Part shown: positions 3,688-29,090 of the stretch, piece after piece
Numbering within the stretch: the first letter of the stretch is position 1
Layout of the letters: every line of letters begins with the position of its first letter
NCBI GenBank assembly: GCA_947165675.1
Contig: CAMVBJ010000015.1
Span: 1 to 64,000, forward strand
Reading direction: 5' to 3'
DNA: 64,000 bases
Origin: an uncultured Prevotellaceae bacterium
GTDB taxonomy: Bacteria > Bacteroidota > Bacteroidia > Bacteroidales > Muribaculaceae
The notes under the pieces: model-generated
The model's input: only the letters and a program-made list of their open reading frames with translations
Database searches by the model: none
Told to the model about the DNA's origin: nothing
Made by a program: the position numbers and the translations under genes

Positions 3688-3771
3688 GAGAAAGTGGGAT
3701 TTTCCAGGCAATTTTGGAGGGTCCCACTATTCTTGAACAATACTAAACGACGGTTTAATATATTTCAAACA

Positions 3772-4449
3772 ATGGATAATAATGCATATGTGGCTTATCT
3801 TAGAGTCTCGACACAACGGCAAGGTGTGTCAGGATTGGGATTACAAGCACAACAAGAAATTATCAGAAACTATCTTAGCGGAGAAGAACCGATAGCTGAA
3901 TTCGTGGAAATTGAATCAGGACGAAAAACACAGCGTCCCAAGCTACACGAGGCATTGGAACTCTGCAAGAAGATGAAGGCCACACTGATCGTCGCCAAAA
4001 TGGATCGACTATCAAGAAACGTGACCTTTACGAGCCAGCTTTTGGATTCGGGCATAGAAATCGTATTCTGTGACTTTCCAAGAGCAAATAGATTGGTACT
4101 AACGATTATCGCAGCCATCAGTGAATATGAGGCTGGATTGATCCGTCAGCGTACCAGAGCGGCCCTACAAGTGAAAAAGGAACAAGGATGTCAACTTGGT
4201 AAACCTGAAAACTTAACGGGCAATATGGAAAAAGCTATCTCGAACAGCCGGCAGACGAACCAGGAGAAGGCGGCTAACAACCCTCACAATAAACGAGCCG
4301 TTGCAATGCTGAAGATCCTTGTGCGAGAGACCAATAACCTGAGCGAGATGGCCAGAACACTTAATAACGAAGGATTCACGACCAGCAGAGGAGGCAAATT
4401 CACCGCAAAGCAGGTCTCGATCCTCATTAACCGATATCAACTAAGATGA
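3772..4449 (+). CDS. Serine recombinase (resolvase/invertase family)
   Basis: The N-terminus carries the resolvase catalytic motif YLRVSTQRQ with the nucleophilic serine at residue 13, followed by the family segments GLGLQAQQ and LIVAKMDRLSRN, in which the arginine cluster is intact. The C-terminal about 75 residues (NNLSEMARTLNNEGFTTSRGG) form the small HTH domain of this 225-residue class. The ATG at 3772 was chosen because the motif begins immediately after it; the frame is open from 3694 but the upstream 26 residues do not fit the family. It probably catalyses excision or inversion for the mobile segment. The stop overlaps the next start (ATGA at 4446). Confidence 0.9.
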   Translation: MDNNAYVAYLRVSTQRQGVSGLGLQAQQEIIRNYLSGEEPIAEFVEIESGRKTQRPKLHEALELCKKMKATLIVAKMDRLSRNVTFTSQLLDSGIEIVFCDFPRANRLVLTIIAAISEYEAGLIRQRTRAALQVKKEQGCQLGKPENLTGNMEKAISNSRQTNQEKAANNPHNKRAVAMLKILVRETNNLSEMARTLNNEGFTTSRGGKFTAKQVSILINRYQLR

Positions 4450-4880: not shown

Positions 4881-4912
4881 TTTTTAAATGTGCTTTATTT
4901 TTCTTATATTTG
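4881..4912 (+). promoter_or_regulatory. Bacteroidetes promoter of nuclease cassette
   Basis: The -7 box TATATTTG lies at 4905-4912, with a T-run at 4881-4885 in the -33 position 20 bp upstream. The segment CATGCGTTT just before the spacer is shared with the promoter at 6458-6489, so the two cassettes appear to have homologous promoters. Confidence 0.65.
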
Positions 4913-4918
4913 CAAAGG

Positions 4919-5080
4919 CATATTGTCAATATGGCCTGTCGCATGGCAACTTCTCAAAAGTAAAATCCAGGCCAAGGCATGTGACCACGATGTTCGTTTC
5001 ATGTGAGTGGCATATCGTTATTCGTTGCAAAGCGGTCGAGAGCTCATCGGTAGGATAACGATTAGTCTGCTCACATTTTT
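4919..5080 (+). ncRNA. Structured leader RNA 1 (homologous to 6496-6735)
   Basis: Transcription from the 4905 promoter would give about 200 untranslated bases. Visible pairings are CATATTG/CAATATG (4919-4933), GGCCTG/CAGGCC (4933-4938 with 4968-4973), and a closing stem GTGAG/CTCAC (5003-5007 with 5070-5074) followed by TTTTT (5076-5080). Inside it, ATCGTTAT pairs with ATAACGAT. The inner 41 bases (5018-5058) match 34 of 41 positions in the second leader. It ends like an intrinsic terminator 43 bases before the nuclease ATG, so it may be an attenuator or a separate small RNA. No named family is recognised. Confidence 0.55.
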
Positions 5081-5123
5081 CGGACACTTAAAATTGACAT
5101 AAACAATTAAATAACAATATATT

Positions 5124-5597
5124 ATGGCAACAAAATCTGATGTACCTGCAAAGCAGGCATTTATTAATTATTTGCAGAATCATGGCTTTGATAATCCCCA
5201 GGTCATGGCACAACCGGCTGACATCATGGCCAAGAAAGGTGATGAAACTTGGTATTTTGAGATAAAGATGACAGGGAGGAAGCAGGGTGAGAGCTACTTT
5301 GGAGCGGCAACTCTGACCGAATGGGAACAAGCGTTTAAAACACCTGAAACATTCCGATTTGTCATTGCGCGAAAAATCGGTGATGGCGAATTTGAATTTA
5401 AGTGCTACAAACCCGAAGACTTTATGGAGTACTCGACTATTCCTCCATTCAAGATCTTTTTCAATGTTAAGTTATCAGACGATAACGATGCCAAGAAGCC
5501 CAAGAAGAAAAGGACAGGCGAGAATGCTGCCGTCCGCTTGACTAAAGATAAATTTGGTGAGTTGAACAAGCTCTTCAAGAAACTGAAGCAAAGCTGA
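5124..5597 (+). CDS. Stand-alone DUF3883/Mrr-like PD-(D/E)XK nuclease
   Basis: This 157-residue protein has the arrangement PAD(33)IMAKKGDETWYFE(46)IK(48), the D...ExK signature of restriction-endonuclease-fold enzymes, followed by LTEWEQA and FRFVIARKIGDGEFEF as in DUF3883-type domains. The C-terminal about 45 residues are Lys-rich (KKPKKKRTG), suited to nucleic-acid binding. DUF3883 is usually one domain of large restriction or defence proteins; a free-standing form with a long folded leader is unusual. ATG at 5124 follows an AT-rich Bacteroidetes-type start region. The next gene begins 56 bp later, possibly in the same operon. Confidence 0.6.
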   Translation: MATKSDVPAKQAFINYLQNHGFDNPQVMAQPADIMAKKGDETWYFEIKMTGRKQGESYFGAATLTEWEQAFKTPETFRFVIARKIGDGEFEFKCYKPEDFMEYSTIPPFKIFFNVKLSDDNDAKKPKKKRTGENAAVRLTKDKFGELNKLFKKLKQS

Positions 5598-5653
5598 TTC
5601 TACCTTTTCTAGTAAGGCAATAGGATCGATATATGATTATCAAATGACAGAAT

Positions 5654-6325
5654 ATGATGATTGAGTTACGGGATGATGACATACAGCGTATTGAGTATGA
5701 GATAATCAGGGTGTACAATGACGGCAGGGCGTGTGATTACACCCAGAACGGGAGCCTGCTTGAGGTGCGCAAGAGGATGATCAACAAGCGGGCACTGGCT
5801 CGGCAAGAGGAGTTGCTGCGCCATATCATCGCATTTAATGACGCTCTGACCGAGGCTCTGCGCAAAATGTACGACAGGGCTTGCAGCGTCTGGGAGGCTA
5901 TGAGGAATCAACTCGATGCTGGCGAACAAGCCGATTTGACGGCAAAATGCTACCTTGGTCATGAATATCCCGCGCTTCATCCGTTGCAAGGCGATGACCG
6001 GGAGGACTTGTGGGATGCGCTGTGCGACAGCGGATGGAATCCACTGTATATTGACGGGGTGACTTTGCCAACGCTTTGTTTCAAAAACAGTTCATCACAT
6101 CACTCTTACACCTTCGACGGCCTCATCGGCATGGACTGCCCACCTCCCAACTGGAACGAGGGCCTGGATCGAGAACTCACCAAGGACCTGCACCTCACGA
6201 GTGCCTTCCACCACCTGTTCGACCACACCATGTTCGCCATCACCGACTTCATCTACGTCCGCGACTTCGACACCGAAATCAACCTCAACATCAACAAATC
6301 AGTCACGCCTGGTGAGAACCGATAA
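5654..6325 (+). CDS. Hypothetical protein (223 aa), possible partner of the nuclease
   Basis: The protein has an N-terminal helical half rich in Arg/Glu (about residues 1-100) and a C-terminal half rich in His, Asp and aromatic residues (LTSAFHHLFDHTMFAITDF, DFDTEINLNINK). No family is recognised. ATG at 5654 is followed directly by a second ATG at 5657, either of which may be used. Composition changes from AT-rich to GC-rich around codon 150, hinting at a mosaic origin. It ends 50 bp before direct-repeat copy B and belongs to the cassette started by leader RNA 1. Confidence 0.55.
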   Translation: MMIELRDDDIQRIEYEIIRVYNDGRACDYTQNGSLLEVRKRMINKRALARQEELLRHIIAFNDALTEALRKMYDRACSVWEAMRNQLDAGEQADLTAKCYLGHEYPALHPLQGDDREDLWDALCDSGWNPLYIDGVTLPTLCFKNSSSHHSYTFDGLIGMDCPPPNWNEGLDRELTKDLHLTSAFHHLFDHTMFAITDFIYVRDFDTEINLNINKSVTPGENR

Positions 6326-6377
6326 GAGAACCCACAGAACGCACTGGCGGAAAAGTCGTCCCGCCTGCATGTCGTTT

Positions 6378-6396
6378 CAAATGGATGATATGGATG
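6378..6396 (+). repeat. Dispersed direct-repeat motif, copy B
   Basis: This copy reads CAAATGGATGATATGGATG, one base different from copies A and C. It lies between the end of the first nuclease cassette (6325) and the promoter of the second (6458). Confidence 0.6.
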
Positions 6397-6457
6397 ATGG
6401 TGGTGCGATAGATTAAAGTTATATTTGTGACTAATAATTAAAAAAGTCGCTCATGCG

Positions 6458-6489
6458 TTTGTGCTTACGCGAAATTCTTTTTATATTTG
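6458..6489 (+). promoter_or_regulatory. Canonical Bacteroidetes promoter of DUF2075/helicase operon
   Basis: TTTG (-33) at 6458-6461 and TATATTTG (-7) at 6482-6489 are separated by exactly 20 bp, the consensus Bacteroidetes spacing. The start site would fall near 6496, leaving an untranslated leader of about 265 bases. Confidence 0.75.
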
Positions 6490-6495
6490 CGACGT

Positions 6496-6735
6496 CATTA
6501 CCTATCAATAGTAATGGCAGGACATAGTAGAAGGTAGCGTTTGGCTATTCCGTGTCTGTGAATCTCGACAACTCACAAAGCAACAGGAATAATGTAACGC
6601 CATCCTTAGTGTATGACTATATGTGTGAAATCACTATACATATTGTTAGACTAAGGTGTGAGCGACTTTTCATTATTCGTTGCAAGGCAGTCGAGAGCCC
6701 ACAGATAGAATAAAGTCAAGTTGGCTCACATTTTT
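6496..6735 (+). ncRNA. Structured leader RNA 2 (homologous to 4919-5080)
   Basis: The transcribed region contains an initial hairpin CATTA-CTA/TAG-TAATG (6496-6516), a long interrupted stem between 6533-6551 and 6586-6605 (GCGTT and TATTCC pairing with GGAATA and AACGC), a stem CCTTAGT/ACTAAGG (6604-6610 with 6650-6656), and a terminal domain closed by GTGAGC/GCTCAC (6658-6663 with 6724-6729) followed by TTTTT (6731-6735). The terminal domain shares a 41-base core (6673-6713) with leader 1. It stops 25 bases before the ATG. It could act as an attenuator or as a separate RNA. Confidence 0.6.
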
Positions 6736-6760
6736 AGAAACCTTTAATAACATTTGCATT

Positions 6761-9034
6761 ATGATTAAATCCAATCGAGTGGTTTATGCCGAAACACTAG
6801 GGACATTTAAACGTCAACTCAAGAAAGGTGATTTTGTGAAGATAATGGAGGAAAGATCACAAGAATGTGGCGTTTCGGTCAATCCCAGCCAGATAAAAGC
6901 CTGGAATGACTATCACCGTTTATTGCCTATTCTCAAGGACTTACCTGATGATATCATTGTCGGGTTTGAATATCAAGTGCCTGTAGGTGGCCGAATTGAT
7001 TTTATTATATTTGGACATGATGTTAATAACAAACCGAATGCAGTTCAAATAGAAGTAAAGCAATGGAGCAATGAGAACGTAAATACAGTTTATAGTCACT
7101 ATGCGTTTGAAGTGGAGGTCGATGGATATGCAAACTCTAAATTAGTTTCTCACCCATCTGAGCAAGTAAGTGAATATCAGAACCACCTATTGAATTATAT
7201 AGATGCTTTTTCATCGGACTCAATCCACTTATCAGGATTGGTATATTGCTATAACTACAAACGAAATCATAGTAAAACAGATTTAATCTCAGCTGATTAT
7301 AAACAACTTATAGATGAATATCCAATTTATTGTGAGGAGGATTCTTCAAAACTGAATCAATTCTTGTCAAATCTTATGTGTAAAGGAAATGGTGAGGACG
7401 TTTTCGAATCAGTCATCACCAGTAAGTGGAAACCCACGAAAAGATTGCAAGACGCTGTTGCTAACATGTTTGATGGTAAGCCCGAATTTAGTTTAGTGGG
7501 AGAGCAACTTACAGCATTTAATGCGATTTTGGGTGCAATTAAGAATACGCCAAAAGATCAGAAGGTTGCTGTTATCGTTAAAGGAGGTCCTGGTACAGGA
7601 AAAAGCGTAATCGCCATGAGGCTTGTATCCGCTTTGGCAAAAGAATGTGAATTTGCATATTATGTTACAAGGTCATCAAGTCTTCGCAAGGGCTTCAAGA
7701 AGATATTAAAAAAACTAGACATTAACAATAAAGGCGTTAATGATTTTATTAAAAACACATTCGATTTTAAGCCAAACTCTTATGACGAGAATGAAGTGAA
7801 TGCAATTATTGTTGATGAAGCCCATCGAATTGAAAAGTCTTCTAACTGGTACGCTCAAGGAAAGAATCAGAAGGGTCGTGATATCTACAACAACACTTTT
7901 CTCTCACAGATTATGTCACTGCTCTACACCGCACGTGTCAGTGTCTTCTTTGTCGATGACCTTCAATGTATTAAACAGACTAACATTGGAACCAGCATTG
8001 CAATTCGAGAAGCAGCCGAGAATTATTCCAAACGACTAGAAGAGGAAATTAATGACTTCACCAATAACGAAGGACATGAGGGTGGCATCGCGAATATCAA
8101 GGCCAAGATAATAAAGCGAACCCGCGAAAAAGATGCTGCATACTCCCGTGGCAATACTATTTTCGCAGAACAAAAAAGCAACAAAATCACAGAACTGAAC
8201 AGTCAATTGCATGATGCTTACACACAGTTAGAATTGATTCAACGACAGACAACAATAGATAAGATACCCGTCTTCGAGATCGAGCTGCCAGACCAGTTCC
8301 GTTGTAATGGATCGGATAATTATCTGGATTGGCTTAATGATGTAATCAATAATGGTTGTAGAAAAAAGCATCGATTAGACCCTTCTCAATATGAATTTGA
8401 TGTTTTTGATACACCTCAAGCTCTATATGAAAAAGTTAAATCGCTTGATGACTATGCAAAGATAGTTCGGGATTTAAAATTCAATTCAGCAAAAGAATTA
8501 AGACAATATATTTGTAAAGTACTAAAATTCAAGCCAAAGCAAACGGCCCGTTTGGCGGCTGGTTGGTGCTGGGATTGGAAAAATGAACTTGCTCCAAATG
8601 GTGATTTGTTAAAGGAAGTTGTCATTGAAGGTTCTGATTGGAATGGCGTACCTTTCACAAAATTTGAAATGCCATGGGAAACCAAGGCAAAGCCAAGAGG
8701 AGATTTTAAATATCATTATGCAGACAATGCCGAATTATGGGCAAACCAACCAGAAGGTATTAATCAAGTTGGATGCATTTTTTCAATGCAAGGCTGGGAG
8801 CTGGATTATGTGGGTATTATTATTGGCCCAGATTTGGTCTATGATAAGGAGAATGATTGTTTGGTGGCAAATAAGGATGGAGGGACGCATGATGTAGACC
8901 TTGATGATGTGAATTTTGATTCATATGTCAAAAACATATATCGTGTATTGCTGACTCGCGGTAAAAAAGGTTGTTTTATCTTCTGCTGTGACCCAGAAGT
9001 TGGCAAGTATTTTAAACGCTGTATGAACCTATAG
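6761..9034 (+). CDS. Nuclease-DUF2075 ATPase/helicase-like protein
   Basis: The 757-residue protein has an N-terminal PD-(D/E)XK-like region (GGRID(80)FIIFG then QIE(98)VK(100)QW) and a DUF2075-type P-loop domain with Walker A GGPGTGKS (275-282) and Walker B IIVDEAH (349-355). A coiled, charged insert occupies about residues 430-500, and the C-terminus has helicase-like segments (PDQFRCNGSDNYLDWL, GCIFSMQGWELDYVGIIIG, YRVLLTRGKKGCFIF). DUF2075 proteins occur in bacterial defence loci. ATG at 6761 was chosen because the open frame back to 6680 runs through the structured leader. The next gene starts 3 bp after the stop, so the two are coupled. Confidence 0.8.
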   Translation: MIKSNRVVYAETLGTFKRQLKKGDFVKIMEERSQECGVSVNPSQIKAWNDYHRLLPILKDLPDDIIVGFEYQVPVGGRIDFIIFGHDVNNKPNAVQIEVKQWSNENVNTVYSHYAFEVEVDGYANSKLVSHPSEQVSEYQNHLLNYIDAFSSDSIHLSGLVYCYNYKRNHSKTDLISADYKQLIDEYPIYCEEDSSKLNQFLSNLMCKGNGEDVFESVITSKWKPTKRLQDAVANMFDGKPEFSLVGEQLTAFNAILGAIKNTPKDQKVAVIVKGGPGTGKSVIAMRLVSALAKECEFAYYVTRSSSLRKGFKKILKKLDINNKGVNDFIKNTFDFKPNSYDENEVNAIIVDEAHRIEKSSNWYAQGKNQKGRDIYNNTFLSQIMSLLYTARVSVFFVDDLQCIKQTNIGTSIAIREAAENYSKRLEEEINDFTNNEGHEGGIANIKAKIIKRTREKDAAYSRGNTIFAEQKSNKITELNSQLHDAYTQLELIQRQTTIDKIPVFEIELPDQFRCNGSDNYLDWLNDVINNGCRKKHRLDPSQYEFDVFDTPQALYEKVKSLDDYAKIVRDLKFNSAKELRQYICKVLKFKPKQTARLAAGWCWDWKNELAPNGDLLKEVVIEGSDWNGVPFTKFEMPWETKAKPRGDFKYHYADNAELWANQPEGINQVGCIFSMQGWELDYVGIIIGPDLVYDKENDCLVANKDGGTHDVDLDDVNFDSYVKNIYRVLLTRGKKGCFIFCCDPEVGKYFKRCMNL

Positions 9035-9037
9035 AAT

Positions 9038-10663
9038 ATGGTTTTTGAGGAATACAAAGACAGTTTATTAGATTATCTGAATCAGGAAAAGATTCTGATG
9101 GAGAGAGATATCGAACTCCATCAGGATCTTCCTGATGAGGAAAAGGTAGAGCAGGGATATCTAATTCCTGCCTGTAGGATTACGAATCATTTGGATGATT
9201 CATACGAATTAACGGCTACTGAGAATAATTCTAAACTGAGGGCTGGTGATAAAGTGACTTTGGTTTGCGAAGACGGTAGCACAATCAAAGGCGTTACTAT
9301 TATTGAAAACTTTTTCAATCGTATCAGCATTGCGACAGAAAAGACGCTGGACAAAGAAAAAGAATATGAGATTCTTGTGACCGAAGCAGTTTTGTTAGAT
9401 CCGTTAATCAATCTGATTGAAGGTCTGGAGAATGGTGCTCCTGGTTCTTTTTATTTAGAGGAATTATGTGGGGCCGAACTGCCCGAAGAGCAGGGATGCT
9501 ACCCCATCGACATAGGCAGTGTTTTTGTGCCTCCAAGATTAAATGAGGCTCAGTTGAGCGCTGTTGATAAAGCATTGAACCGTCCGTCGTTACATTGTAT
9601 TCAAGGGCCTCCGGGTACAGGCAAGACCGATGTTTTAGCAACTATTGCACGTATCTTTAGCGAGAAAGGTAAGGAAGTACTTGTCATAAGTAATACTCAT
9701 CAAGCGGTTAATAATGCACTGAATGCCGTCGCTCAATATCCTGTTCCCGTGGTTAAGATAGGCGAAACACTAAAGGCACAGGAACTTGATGACAGAATTC
9801 AGAAAGAGAAAACATTTGGGGCATACTTGCGGACAAGAAAAGGGAAAAAAAGATCACGGAATGCAAAAGGTGCCATCGTGGGCATGACTCTTCATGGGGC
9901 AATCATCAACTTGGGGCTTCGTAGTAGTGGCTTTTCACCAAGTATCGTTCTTGTTGATGAAGCGGGGCAAATTCCTCTTACCTTTGGTTCTGCAATTGGA
10001 ACCTTTGGTTCTGGTAGCGTCATATTTATTGGTGACGATAGGCAAATGCCACCCATCTTCCATCCCGAATTAAAAGGCGATGAATTGTCTGTTAGCGTGT
10101 TTAGTCATGTGGCTGATATGTATCCCGATTTTAAAACCGTTTTGGATACAACTTATCGAATGAACACAGAGATCACAGACTTTATTAACAAGCACTTCTA
10201 TGAGCCTTATGGCATCTCACTGAAGAGCCTCAGGGAACCTAAATTCACTGATAGTATTGAAGTGAAGTCTCTTCCTTCAGCACCGGATTCACCATGGGAG
10301 GATTATAATCCCGAAGAGGCGGTAATTGTGGCGGACTACGCACTTCAGTATGTAAAGAAAGGATTAGAGGTTGCTGTCGTTACCCCTTTCAGGAAACAAG
10401 TTAATTGCATCCGCGGCTTGATTGCCGATTTATTCGAGACCAACAACATGCAAGATCGAGTCCCGCTCGTTGATACAGTTGAGCGATTACAAGGACAGAG
10501 TGTAGATGTTATCATCATTTCAACATCGGCAAGCAATCCTCAGTATTACCACAATATTGAGTCATTCATTCTTGAACGCCATCGCATGAATGTCATGTGC
10601 TCAAGAGCGAAAGATAAGGTGATCTTTGTGAAAAATGACATCGTGGACTTAGATAGAATGTAG
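9038..10663 (+). CDS. UPF1-like superfamily 1 helicase
   Basis: This 541-residue protein has an N-terminal OB/beta-barrel-like region (residues 1-165; GDKVTLVCEDGSTIKGVTII) and an SF1B helicase core: Q-like motif NEAQLSAVDKAL, Walker A GPPGTGKT (190-197), Walker B LVDEAGQ (305-311), motif III IGDDRQMPP (331-339), a TTYRMN segment, motif V VERLQGQSVDVIIIS and motif VI HRMNVMCSRAKDKV. All catalytic motifs look intact. It follows the DUF2075 protein by 3 bp and probably works with it; the pair resembles nuclease/helicase defence modules. Confidence 0.85.
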   Translation: MVFEEYKDSLLDYLNQEKILMERDIELHQDLPDEEKVEQGYLIPACRITNHLDDSYELTATENNSKLRAGDKVTLVCEDGSTIKGVTIIENFFNRISIATEKTLDKEKEYEILVTEAVLLDPLINLIEGLENGAPGSFYLEELCGAELPEEQGCYPIDIGSVFVPPRLNEAQLSAVDKALNRPSLHCIQGPPGTGKTDVLATIARIFSEKGKEVLVISNTHQAVNNALNAVAQYPVPVVKIGETLKAQELDDRIQKEKTFGAYLRTRKGKKRSRNAKGAIVGMTLHGAIINLGLRSSGFSPSIVLVDEAGQIPLTFGSAIGTFGSGSVIFIGDDRQMPPIFHPELKGDELSVSVFSHVADMYPDFKTVLDTTYRMNTEITDFINKHFYEPYGISLKSLREPKFTDSIEVKSLPSAPDSPWEDYNPEEAVIVADYALQYVKKGLEVAVVTPFRKQVNCIRGLIADLFETNNMQDRVPLVDTVERLQGQSVDVIIISTSASNPQYYHNIESFILERHRMNVMCSRAKDKVIFVKNDIVDLDRM

Positions 10664-12063: not shown

Positions 12064-12350
12064 TTTTTCGGAAAAGTGAAACGAGTTCTTTGAGTTAATT
12101 TGTAATAATATGAAGCATCCAGAGACGGCTTAGGTGCTGCTCCAACCGAGCGCGAGTCATGAACGCCACGGTGGGAAAATTGATGTGAATTATTAGAGTT
12201 TATCAACTTAATAATTAAAAATGATTTATGACAAAATTTCAAGACATTCTGGTAACTAATTGTGTGGGGACCCTCGTGGTCTCCGCAGCAAGCGCTGCAC
12301 ACCTTTCATAACGTAGGTGTCCTAGGGAAAAATACCTATCGGGTATTACT
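12064..12350 (+). ncRNA. Structured leader RNA 3 before AAA ATPase
   Basis: Clear pairings are CCG-GCG/CGC-CGG (12146-12171), AATTATTA/TAATAATT (12188-12216), and a compact three-way junction closed by GTGT/ACAC (12262-12265 with 12299-12302), which encloses GGGGACC/GGTCTCC and GCAGC/GCTGC hairpins. A hairpin AATACC/GGTATT follows at 12331-12347. It shares no obvious sequence with leaders 1 and 2. The region 11884-12410 contains no convincing coding gene. No named RNA family is recognised. Confidence 0.55.
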
Positions 12351-12410: not shown

Positions 12411-14213
12411 ATGGCAAATCAGAACAAAGACAACAAGAAAATCACTGTAGAGAACTGTCCCAACACCCTTGAAGAACTGGAAAGCATGACCCTCGATCCC
12501 GAAATGGCCGAACTCGAGGACGATGAGCAGGAAGACTTGGCCCCCACCTCGTTCCAAACCGACAAAGAGCCGACCACGCTGCTCGAGGCCATCGACAACG
12601 TGAACATCGTGCTCGACAACATGAAAGACGGCCTCTGGATGTTTGACTGCTCCTACTGCCATGGCAACAACATCGATTATCTGGTGAGCCGCTTGCACAT
12701 CACCCCCATCCAAGCCGCCTTGTTCAGCCTCTGCGTCGAACTGAGCCCCAACAGCATCACCTATAGTGACCTAGCATGCCAACTCAACTTGTCCAAGGCC
12801 CGTGCCATGGCGCTTGCCCCCCATCTCGACGGCCTCGTGCGCGACCGCCTCATGAAGATGGAGAAGGATTTCAATGGCCGCTTGTGCTACAATGTGCCTT
12901 TCCACACCATCAGGGTGCTGACGACGGATTCAGATTTTCAGCCCCCACGCCGCAAGGTCAAGAACGATGAGGACTTGTTGGATTACTTCCACGGCTATCT
13001 GAATGAAGTGCAGGGCGAGGGTCTCAGCCACATGCTGATACAAGAGGAGGTAGAAGCTCTGCTCGACGAGAACAAGGGTCTGCACATCGTCGAAGAAATC
13101 AACAAGATCGACCTTGACGAGAGGGACCGCATGCTGCTGTTATTCGTCTGCGAGCGGCTGGTTGTTGAACGCGAGAACGAGTTCACCATGTTTGATCTGG
13201 ATGACTTGTACCCCAACAGGGGCGAATTCCAAAAGGCAAGGGATGACTTCAGGGGTGGCACTCACAACTTGATACGCGCAGGCTTGCTGGAGCACACTTG
13301 TAACAACGGCATCGTCAATCCCGATGTTCTCACCTTGTCGCAGGCGGCTCGCAAGACACTGCTCTCGGACATCAAAATGGCAGTTGCGTCAGAGAACGTG
13401 AGCGGACTGGTCGCTGCCAAGAGTCTGCAAGCCAAGGAGCTCTTCTACAGCGAGAAGGTGGCCAAGCAGGTGGACGGATTGCGGCTCTTCCTCGAACGCA
13501 AGAAGTACAAGGAGATCATGAAACGACTGGGCGAACGCTTCCACCGCGGAGGGCTCACGGTCCTCTTGCACGGCGGACCGGGCACTGGCAAGACCGAGAC
13601 CGTTTATCAACTGGCTCGACAGACAGGGCGCGACATCATGGCCGTTGACATGTCAAGCATCAAGAGCAAGTGGGTCGGCGAGACTGAGCAGAACATCAAG
13701 GCACTGTTCGACCGTTACCGCGCCATCGTCAAGAAGTACAAGGTGGCACCGATACTGCTCTTCAACGAGGCCGACGCCATCTTCGGGGTGCGCATGTCGG
13801 GAGCCACTCGGTCGGTTGACAAAATGATGAACTCCATGCAGAACATCATCCTTCAAGAGATGGAGACGCTCGACGGCATCTTGATAGCCACCACCAACTT
13901 GACCGAGAACCTTGACAAGGCCTTCGATCGTCGCTTCCTCTACAGGATTGAGTTTGAGCGACCCGACAAGAGCGTGAGAGCACGCATCTGGCACCAAATG
14001 ATGCCCGAGCTGGAGGAGCACGAGTGCGAGGCGCTGGCCGAGCGCTTCGACCTGAGCGGTGGGCAAATCGAGAATGTGGCCCGCAAGTTTGCCATCAACT
14101 CGATCCTCTACGGGGAACCCACAGCCAAGCGCCTCGAGAACTTGACCGAACTCTGCTCCGAGGAGAACCAAGGCCGTTCCAACGGATTCCACCGTGTCGG
14201 CTTCGTGGCATGA
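12411..14213 (+). CDS. AAA ATPase with N-terminal helical regulatory region
   Basis: This 600-residue protein has a long N-terminal region with winged-helix-like segments (ITYSDLACQLNLSKARAMAL, about residues 116-135) and a C-terminal AAA domain: Walker A GGPGTGKT (388-395), KSKWVGETEQN pore-loop/second-region motif, Walker B variant ILLFNEADAI (448-457), sensor ATTNL and arginine finger region FDRRFLYRIEF. In Walker B an Asn stands where Asp is usual; from memory this FNEAD form is common in this Bacteroidetes ATPase group. It probably remodels a protein partner. Composition is GC-richer than neighbouring island genes. Confidence 0.8.
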   Translation: MANQNKDNKKITVENCPNTLEELESMTLDPEMAELEDDEQEDLAPTSFQTDKEPTTLLEAIDNVNIVLDNMKDGLWMFDCSYCHGNNIDYLVSRLHITPIQAALFSLCVELSPNSITYSDLACQLNLSKARAMALAPHLDGLVRDRLMKMEKDFNGRLCYNVPFHTIRVLTTDSDFQPPRRKVKNDEDLLDYFHGYLNEVQGEGLSHMLIQEEVEALLDENKGLHIVEEINKIDLDERDRMLLLFVCERLVVERENEFTMFDLDDLYPNRGEFQKARDDFRGGTHNLIRAGLLEHTCNNGIVNPDVLTLSQAARKTLLSDIKMAVASENVSGLVAAKSLQAKELFYSEKVAKQVDGLRLFLERKKYKEIMKRLGERFHRGGLTVLLHGGPGTGKTETVYQLARQTGRDIMAVDMSSIKSKWVGETEQNIKALFDRYRAIVKKYKVAPILLFNEADAIFGVRMSGATRSVDKMMNSMQNIILQEMETLDGILIATTNLTENLDKAFDRRFLYRIEFERPDKSVRARIWHQMMPELEEHECEALAERFDLSGGQIENVARKFAINSILYGEPTAKRLENLTELCSEENQGRSNGFHRVGFVA

Positions 14214-28817: not shown

Positions 28818-28830
28818 CAGCGCTTAAAAT

Positions 28831-29003
28831 GGTAATCGTGTGGTTGTGAACCACATTGATGAAAGGGAATCCGGTGAGAATCCGGAACTGTACCTGCAGC
28901 TGTAATCCCCTTTAACACAGGGTCTGCTTACGTCAATGCCACTGGCCGAGATCAAGGCTGGGAAGGCAAGCGGACTGGGGAAAAGTCAGAAGACCTGCCA
29001 TCG
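28831..29003 (+). promoter_or_regulatory. Cobalamin riboswitch
   Basis: The segment contains the invariant aptamer words AAGGGAATCCGGTGAGAATC, GGAACTGTACC, GCAGCTGTAATCC, GCCACTGGC, GGGAAGGC and AGTCAGAAGACCTGCC in order. These are the conserved core and B12-box elements of the cobalamin riboswitch. A downstream hairpin (GTTAG-TTTTA/TAAAAC-TAAC, about 29011-29035) may belong to the expression platform. It lies upstream of the first BtuB-like receptor and probably represses the receptor/CbiK/receptor operon when B12 is abundant. Confidence 0.93.
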
Positions 29004-29090
29004 CTTTAGGAGTTAGGTTTTAGCTTAAAACTAACAACTGAAAACTTAAAAAGTACGCTCACTCAGGAACAGGTGTGACGGAATGCAGAC

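Follow-up and report, generated by a model that had tools for sequence, protein, structure and literature searches.

A putative two-state leader RNA present in many copies per genome ahead of surface-protein and accessory genes in Bacteroidia

The window analysed here, a stretch of 64,000 nucleotides from an uncultured Prevotellaceae bacterium (contig CAMVBJ010000015.1), holds on its plus strand two similar RNA-like domains, copy a (5003-5080) and copy b (6658-6735), each of which is followed by an open reading frame (ORF) on the same strand, starting 42 nt downstream of copy a and 24 nt downstream of copy b. The first gene behind copy a (5124..5597, +) encodes a protein of 157 aa with no family match and no relative in the other 294 genomes searched. 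The first gene behind copy b (6761..9034, +) encodes a Schlafen-group-3 helicase-domain protein (PF09848, 6.1e-69), and is directly followed by an ORF for a UPF1/IGHMBP2-type helicase (9038-10663), for which PADLOC reports a likeness to MkoA. Upstream of the domains lie the promoter -7-like sites TATATTTG of copy a (4905..4912, +) and of copy b (6482..6489, +), and a serine recombinase (Resolvase, PF00239) is encoded at 3694-4449, 0.55 kb upstream of copy a, with a likeness to the Mpi and XisF families that falls far below the cut-offs. Further along the window, a SAM-I/IV riboswitch match (RF01725, 48 bits; 12110-12220) precedes an ORF for an AAA ATPase (12411-14210) with a likeness to IetA in PADLOC, and a Cobalamin riboswitch (RF00174, 87.8 bits) is found at 28824-29016.

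Gapless alignment of copies a and b gave 60 identical positions out of 78, with a best 41-base core (5018-5058 versus 6673-6713) identical at 34 positions, exactly as had been claimed in the original prediction that drew attention to these domains. Recomputation by alignment and folding also recovered the claimed outer stems (GTGAG/CTCAC in copy a, GTGAGC/GCTCAC in copy b), the inner stems (ATCGTTAT/ATAACGAT in copy a, TTATTC/GAATAA in copy b), and the TTTTT after each domain, and the same holds for the placement of each domain after a promoter-like site and before a same-strand ORF. The folding of each domain beats 200/200 shuffles (z -3.7 for copy a and -3.5 for copy b). When copy a was compared with all positions on both strands of the window, the runner-up matched at 38 of 78 positions, and a 24-nt consensus core, allowing up to three mismatches, was located at only two sites in the window (none expected, from 100 shuffles) and at only the same two sites in the 3.12-Mb genome. 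A chance repeat is ruled out by the core identity, the score of the runner-up, and the shuffles.

Copy b is a complete element of approximately 200 nt (6533..6736, +; 99.8 bits and E 6.9e-18 with the full model R2, described below), in which a 5' half (6533-6654) is complementary to the 3' domain. Copy a consists only of the 3' terminator-like domain (5002..5081, +; 19.5 bits with the full model), lacks such a half, and has a 5' part unrelated to that of copy b (local score 16.0, matched by 155/500 shuffles). Two folds can be drawn for the complete element, all of whose parts lie on the plus strand. In the two-hairpin fold, a 5' hairpin, HP5 (6537..6600), is closed by the outer stem GCGTT (6537-6541) / AACGC (6596-6600), and a terminator-like 3' hairpin, HP3 (6658..6735), which is the second domain of the original prediction, is formed with strand B (6655..6664) paired to strand C (GCTCACAT, 6724..6731) and is followed by the T-run (6731..6735). 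In the other fold, a long rod, the 5' half pairs with the 3' half: arm X (6553..6560) with X' (6700-6707), arm Y (TCTCGAC, 6563..6569), which forms the loop of HP5, with Y' (6690-6696), arm Z (6580..6594) with Z' (about 6671-6683), and strand A (6598..6610), the antiterminator side, with the stretch holding B, in copy b partly by means of a copy-specific stem (CCTTAG). Strand B is therefore shared, its partner being A in the rod and C in the terminator. For copy a, the prediction is the terminator state, with B paired at 0.97 to the downstream and at 0.00 to the upstream side; for copy b it is the rod, with values of 0.79 upstream and 0.00 downstream. The two copies thus illustrate both predicted states. 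Rather than standing alone as a terminator hairpin, the 3' domain is one half of a two-state element. Immediately before the promoter of copy b, at 6442-6453, B and the bases that follow it recur in part as their reverse complement, and the same holds for a third copy, L009; this arrangement was not noticed in the other leaders read.

This third copy, which belongs to a genome of the same taxonomic family, was the only one judged real on reading among the nine loci outside this genome that a 24-nt pattern retrieved from 297 genomes, a first search of little power, since a backwards control pattern matched four genomes. A model built from the three 3' domains (a, b, and L009), R1, matched at E <= 1 in 32/393 genomes of the order, some of them with three to five matches. 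By reading, the matches with E below 0.1 have a further 5' part in common, which in many of them comprises a promoter-like site, a small hairpin, GACATA, and then AAAGCGTT with a hairpin; the loops of this 5' hairpin and of the 3' hairpin are reverse complements of each other (e.g., CTGGAC and GTCCAG). Rows at E 0.2-0.9 were mixed, as L035, L036, and L040 looked real and five others looked like chance. The full model, R2, identified 13 copies in this genome, with E up to 0.002, as well as 1-24 copies each in 17/41 genomes of the order (this genome is counted in here, as it is in a tally of 6/41), and matches in 5/9 genomes of the class outside the order, but in 0/31 genomes of other classes. 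A broader scan of the phylum revealed the element in at least 44/395 genomes, one of them outside the class, a figure which is a floor because only six candidates per genome were scored. The titles of R2-matching loci, mostly metagenome bins, include Alistipes, Odoribacter, Prevotellaceae, Paludibacteraceae, Flavobacteriales, and Chitinophagales; L073 comes from the complete genome of Alistipes sp. dk3624, and L087 from a metagenome bin of Alistipes senegalensis. One complete element (L057) is located on a 44-kb IMG/VR contig; BLAST of the copy a region against phages and plasmids returned no match, and neither did the exact core pattern in viral contigs. Tandem elements occur at L050, L110, and L135. 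Taken as a family, the element is a leader of about 160-200 letters, found many times per genome before surface-protein and accessory genes in Bacteroidia. The original prediction had proposed that a common structured RNA would be supported by many homologues with covarying stems in front of genes, and such homologues have been found.

The counts given below depend on how the elements were collected. From the 36-row match list, L034, L037, L038, L039, and L041 were dropped as chance on reading, together with the second rows in L009, L012, L017, L018, and L032, and the R1 matches in two genomes without a locus (G655 and G407) were left out. Set A4 does not include copy a or L056, which has the same score as L013 from the same genome. 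A collection based on the A:B pattern provided at least 80 loci, and set A5 holds 82 rows from 78/81 sources (L091, L127, and L137 gave none). The counts of A:B pairing on A5 are not independent, because its sequences were chosen for a conserved A:B hairpin and fitted to the rod. Its two reverse-strand rows were excluded from the tests of T-run, promoter, ORF, own-genome B strands, and duplex energy, and retained in the B-pairing count of 123 sequences. Since L095 (A5) is the same element as L055 (A4), the 133 elements represent 132 distinct ones, and L095 was left out of set A6. First genes were sought behind 122 elements, nine of which gave none (two contig ends, three with a second element next, and four with no qualifying ATG ORF).

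The evidence for the rod comes from the complementarity of the two halves within each copy. The duplex of matched 5' and 3' halves has an energy of -37.6 kcal/mol, versus -18.6 kcal/mol for halves mismatched between genomes, and the own partner is the best one in 36/41 elements; a second set of 80 elements, collected with the short A:B pattern and overlapping the first in one element (L095), yielded -38.5 versus -18.0 kcal/mol, with the own partner best in 70/80. This copy-specific complementarity, lost in mismatched pairs, led to the rejection of plain terminators as the whole explanation. Both folds were scored for covariation on 41 elements aligned with MAFFT without regard to structure. 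On it, 89.2% of the cells of the rod are paired and its covariation reaches 0.549 versus 0.237 in shuffles, none of the 500 being as high; one of the five measures used, the number of pair types, was matched in 21/500 shuffles. Every pair of X and of Y is altered on both sides in some of the 41 rows, and across the family arm Y is 99.0% paired, with changes on both sides in 7/7 pairs. By reading, the sequences of X and Z vary between copies, even within one genome. The halves are reverse complements of each other that are maintained by compensatory change. At one A:B position the commonest pair is U-G (29/41), which fits an RNA rather than a DNA structure. The initial idea, a simple loop-loop pseudoknot, gave way to the rod once the nested order of X, Z, and A:B had become apparent.

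On the same 41 rows, the two-hairpin fold is 86.9% paired, with a covariation of 0.328 versus 0.210 in shuffles (0/500 as high) that drops to 0.08-0.12 when the fold is slid by one to three columns. Its local helices are paired in 91.8% (HP5 apical), 86.6% (B:C), 80.4% (HP3 mid), 95.4% (HP3 apical), and 86.0% (HP5 outer) of the cases. A segment cross test supports HP5 (z -4.0, -5.5, and -8.3) and B:C (-7.7), and provides no signal for HP3 mid (-1.3), HP3 apical (0.5), or S1:C (0.2). The shuffles leave the relatedness among elements in place, and the segments without signal indicate that relatedness alone is not sufficient everywhere to produce one. Despite the null cross test, HP3 mid and HP3 apical are backed by column counts; in the latter, pair 213:224, which lies outside the counted rod helices, is C-G in 19/41 elements and U-A in 18/41.

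Two exclusive folds that share strands should leave a pattern of covariation with two partners, and this pattern is observed at several positions. In 33/41 elements (13.4 expected), column 50 of HP5 is complementary to its rod partner as well as to its local one, as G-C-C, U-A-A, or A-U-U, and double pairing was also found for column 49 (20/30, 5.5 expected) and column 51 (35/41, 27.5 expected). Within B, a score as high as that of column 174 was reached in 0/500 shuffles and one as high as that of column 175 in 1/500; the excess over shuffles is weak in columns 173 and 179, and the other four hardly vary and add nothing. The columns shared by HP5 and A (100-102) gave little, with 80, 21, and 500 of 500 shuffles as high. 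In the 41-row alignment, 25/41 elements have at least 6/8 B positions paired with A and at least 6/8 paired with C. Of the copies of this genome, 12/13, with nine different B strands, entered a permutation test; here B fits its own A and its own C, with only 0 and 2 of 5000 permutations as good, respectively. The copy left out, L213, has neither a good C nor a T-run. Strand B is thus complementary to two mutually exclusive partners, A and C, as is required of an attenuator.

The energetics bear on the direction that such a switch would take. Across 121 elements, the full element is more stable than its separately folded halves by a mean of 13.3 kcal/mol (the smallest gain being 0.1), the 3' half by itself reaching -27.8 kcal/mol. 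B is paired upstream in 122/123 sequences at full length and in 123/123 before C exists. In these calculations, the terminator fold is almost never populated at equilibrium, which implies that switching would need a factor or kinetics, and that transcription should normally read through, with termination as the event under regulation. A T-run was detected, by a permissive rule, in 126/133 elements, a count that is partly selected because the models include the T-run columns. The promoter-like sequence TAnnTTTG occurs upstream of 89/132 elements, versus 9/132 after one shuffle per stretch. A same-strand ORF starts within 330 nt in 109/115 cases, versus 45/115 for the divergent-side control, and the median distance from the element to the ATG is 53 nt (113/122 elements with a first gene). 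A terminator-like hairpin and then a T-run are therefore placed ahead of the first gene, the second feature to be expected of an attenuator.

The genes behind the element are diverse. In this genome, 8/13 copies precede BspA-type LRR proteins (PF13306; 10/13 were scanned), and the remaining first genes encode the Schlafen-type helicase, a Big_2 protein, an unassigned protein whose start looks export-like, and, by reading, one lipoprotein-like and one small protein. Among 112 first-gene proteins of the family, 64 show an export-signal-like N-terminus according to a rough rule, and 176 Pfam families are represented, the commonest being LRR_5 and LRR_8 (8 each), with ResIII in 7 and Por_Secre_tail in 5. 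First genes for restriction, helicase, methylase, or nuclease functions amount to roughly 17-20/112 (estimated by reading, and not as an exact union), their largest families being ResIII (7/112, Pfam) and PbeA-like proteins (6/112, PADLOC). The first genes that appear to be exported are, again by reading, 9/11 in genome G317 and about 4/9 in G315. The target genes have no common pathway that would suggest a ligand. In at least eight loci (L024, L027, L032, L062, L072, L077, L120, and L230), the first gene was read as encoding a small HTH-like protein (HIGxLI...WLA), with no Pfam match in the case of L077, and a similar-looking small protein of ~70 aa lies behind L216 and L227, in two different genomes.

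According to these data, the element is probably a cis-acting attenuator, in which the rod (antiterminator) and the two-hairpin terminator fold would be mutually exclusive, a proposal drawn from sequence and its covariation. In the rod state, B would be held by A upstream and transcription would read on into the gene; in the two-hairpin state, B would pair with C, and HP3 together with the T-run would stop transcription. Somewhat more tentatively, it can be proposed that the family constitutes an undescribed Bacteroidia class of signal-responsive leader RNA, in which four arms re-pair between the two-hairpin terminator and the rod, the copy-specific arms prevent cross-pairing among up to two dozen copies, one cell-wide signal gates many envelope and accessory genes, and a truncated copy such as a, once terminated, may act in trans on b. 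An alternative which is unlikely, albeit not far-fetched, is that the rod represents the sole working fold—a leader hairpin that would stabilise the mRNA, undergo cleavage by an RNase III-type enzyme, or bind a protein—and the terminator-like hairpin a by-product. The rod is indeed strongly favoured at equilibrium and is the better conserved fold, but the B:C, HP5 apical, and HP3 apical pairs also covary, pair 213:224 alternates between C-G and U-A outside the counted rod helices, several shared positions covary three ways, and the T-run is widespread.

The remaining explanations depart further from the attenuator. A free-standing small RNA acting in trans, for which the downstream gene would be incidental, would account for the element having its own promoter-like site and T-run, and a terminated transcript of copy a could pair with the 5' arm of copy b at -31.3 kcal/mol (-39.5 for the own 3' half of b). 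However, this explanation is improbable, given the excess of same-strand gene starts over the divergent side and the variation of X and Z between copies, unlike a common seed. Moreover, the edge of copy a is small: it is the best of 13 foreign 3' halves on the 5' arm of b, but only slightly, the other twelve ranging from -17.4 to -29.7 kcal/mol, and any action of copy a on b in trans is a matter of speculation. The original prediction had read the two domains as a regulator belonging to a family of defence cassettes; both copies of the window do have neighbouring genes that are, or are suspected to be, of the nuclease/helicase type, and PLD+SNF2, Mrr-helicase, DNA-methylase, and T5orf172-type genes are found behind other copies. 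Such specificity is nevertheless very hard to reconcile with the export-like start of 64/112 first genes, the BspA-type LRR proteins behind 8/13 copies here, and the apparently exported genes of G317 and G315, restriction, helicase, methylase, and nuclease genes being a minority. The common structured RNA is supported, and its tie to defence is not. Equally remote is the notion of a DNA element (an invertible promoter, an attC-like site, a REP or a MITE) with palindromes misread as RNA. It could draw on the long palindromes, the serine recombinase near copy a, and the partial inverted B copy upstream of the promoter in b and L009, yet U-G pairs are found inside covarying helices, the elements have a single strand orientation, towards the gene, a T-run follows, and the arm sequences vary between copies. 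The recombinase and the inverted copy of B also prompted consideration of a DNA inversion site, attC, and retron a1/a2, none of which was supported.

A leader RNA with strong covariation, carried by approximately two fifths of the sampled genomes of the order in up to 24 copies and with no Rfam match, points to a common signal over surface proteins (BspA-type LRR proteins and lipoproteins) and some restriction systems in Bacteroidia. The copy-specific sequences of its arms might in addition provide a naturally occurring set of RNA switches without cross-reaction.

Known RNAs were sought in Rfam, a search that had also been proposed in the original prediction: no covariance model of Rfam 15 matched above its gathering threshold over the element in the window and 76 loci. 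With E up to 1 allowed, a single match far below threshold coincides with an element: mir-466 (E 0.71), opposite the element of L036 on the other strand. The DUF805 RNA (RF03081), listed in Rfam as cis-regulatory, lies ~40 nt downstream of the element and before the gene in L029 (1389-1457, -) and L054 (2380-2445, +), the latter with a second copy of this RNA 1 kb further on; it is a separate model of 68 positions that adjoins the element and is not within it, and was seen beside it in 2/76 scanned loci. By reading, many other elements are separated from their gene by an additional small hairpin whose loop is of the GGGA type.

RfaH with its ops site, and UpxY, exert leader control of surface and horizontally acquired operons. 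The element resembles these systems in that surface and accessory operons would be controlled through the leader, but, unlike them, it seemingly does not need a dedicated NusG paralogue. The element-rich genomes G308 (9 copies) and G315 (11 copies) have one NusG-domain gene each, as do the carriers G299, G314, G323, and G325, and a NusG-paralogue partner was discarded because no association was found across 38 of the 41 genomes. Within the parts of the literature searched that were available (including PMC9723704, PMC7366714, and PMC8040213), no published account of the element was found. HMP2_4205 of Bacteroidetes, one of the candidate structured RNAs of human microbiomes, is described as palindromic, 132 bp long, and near TPR genes (PMC8040213); it is like the element in being palindromic, terminator-like, and from Bacteroidetes, a comparison by description only, in which the two may or may not overlap. 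Flavo-1 RNA is reported as a structured RNA of Bacteroidota at 5' transcribed regions (PMC9723704). At the gathering threshold, Flavo-1 had no match in the scanned loci, including L092 and L114 from Flavobacteriales.

Transcription attenuators, such as the trp-type, T-box, and terminator riboswitches, rely on a competing terminator and antiterminator. T-box and riboswitch models of Rfam had no match in the scanned elements, and no short ORF was noticed by eye in the leaders read; the element does have conserved positions. It has in common with attenuators the leader position, one strand with two partners, the terminator-like 3' hairpin with a T-run, and the exclusive folds. Unlike in attenuators, the arms of both hairpins can exchange here, and the resulting rod would span the whole element, while its arms vary from copy to copy and its target genes are functionally diverse.
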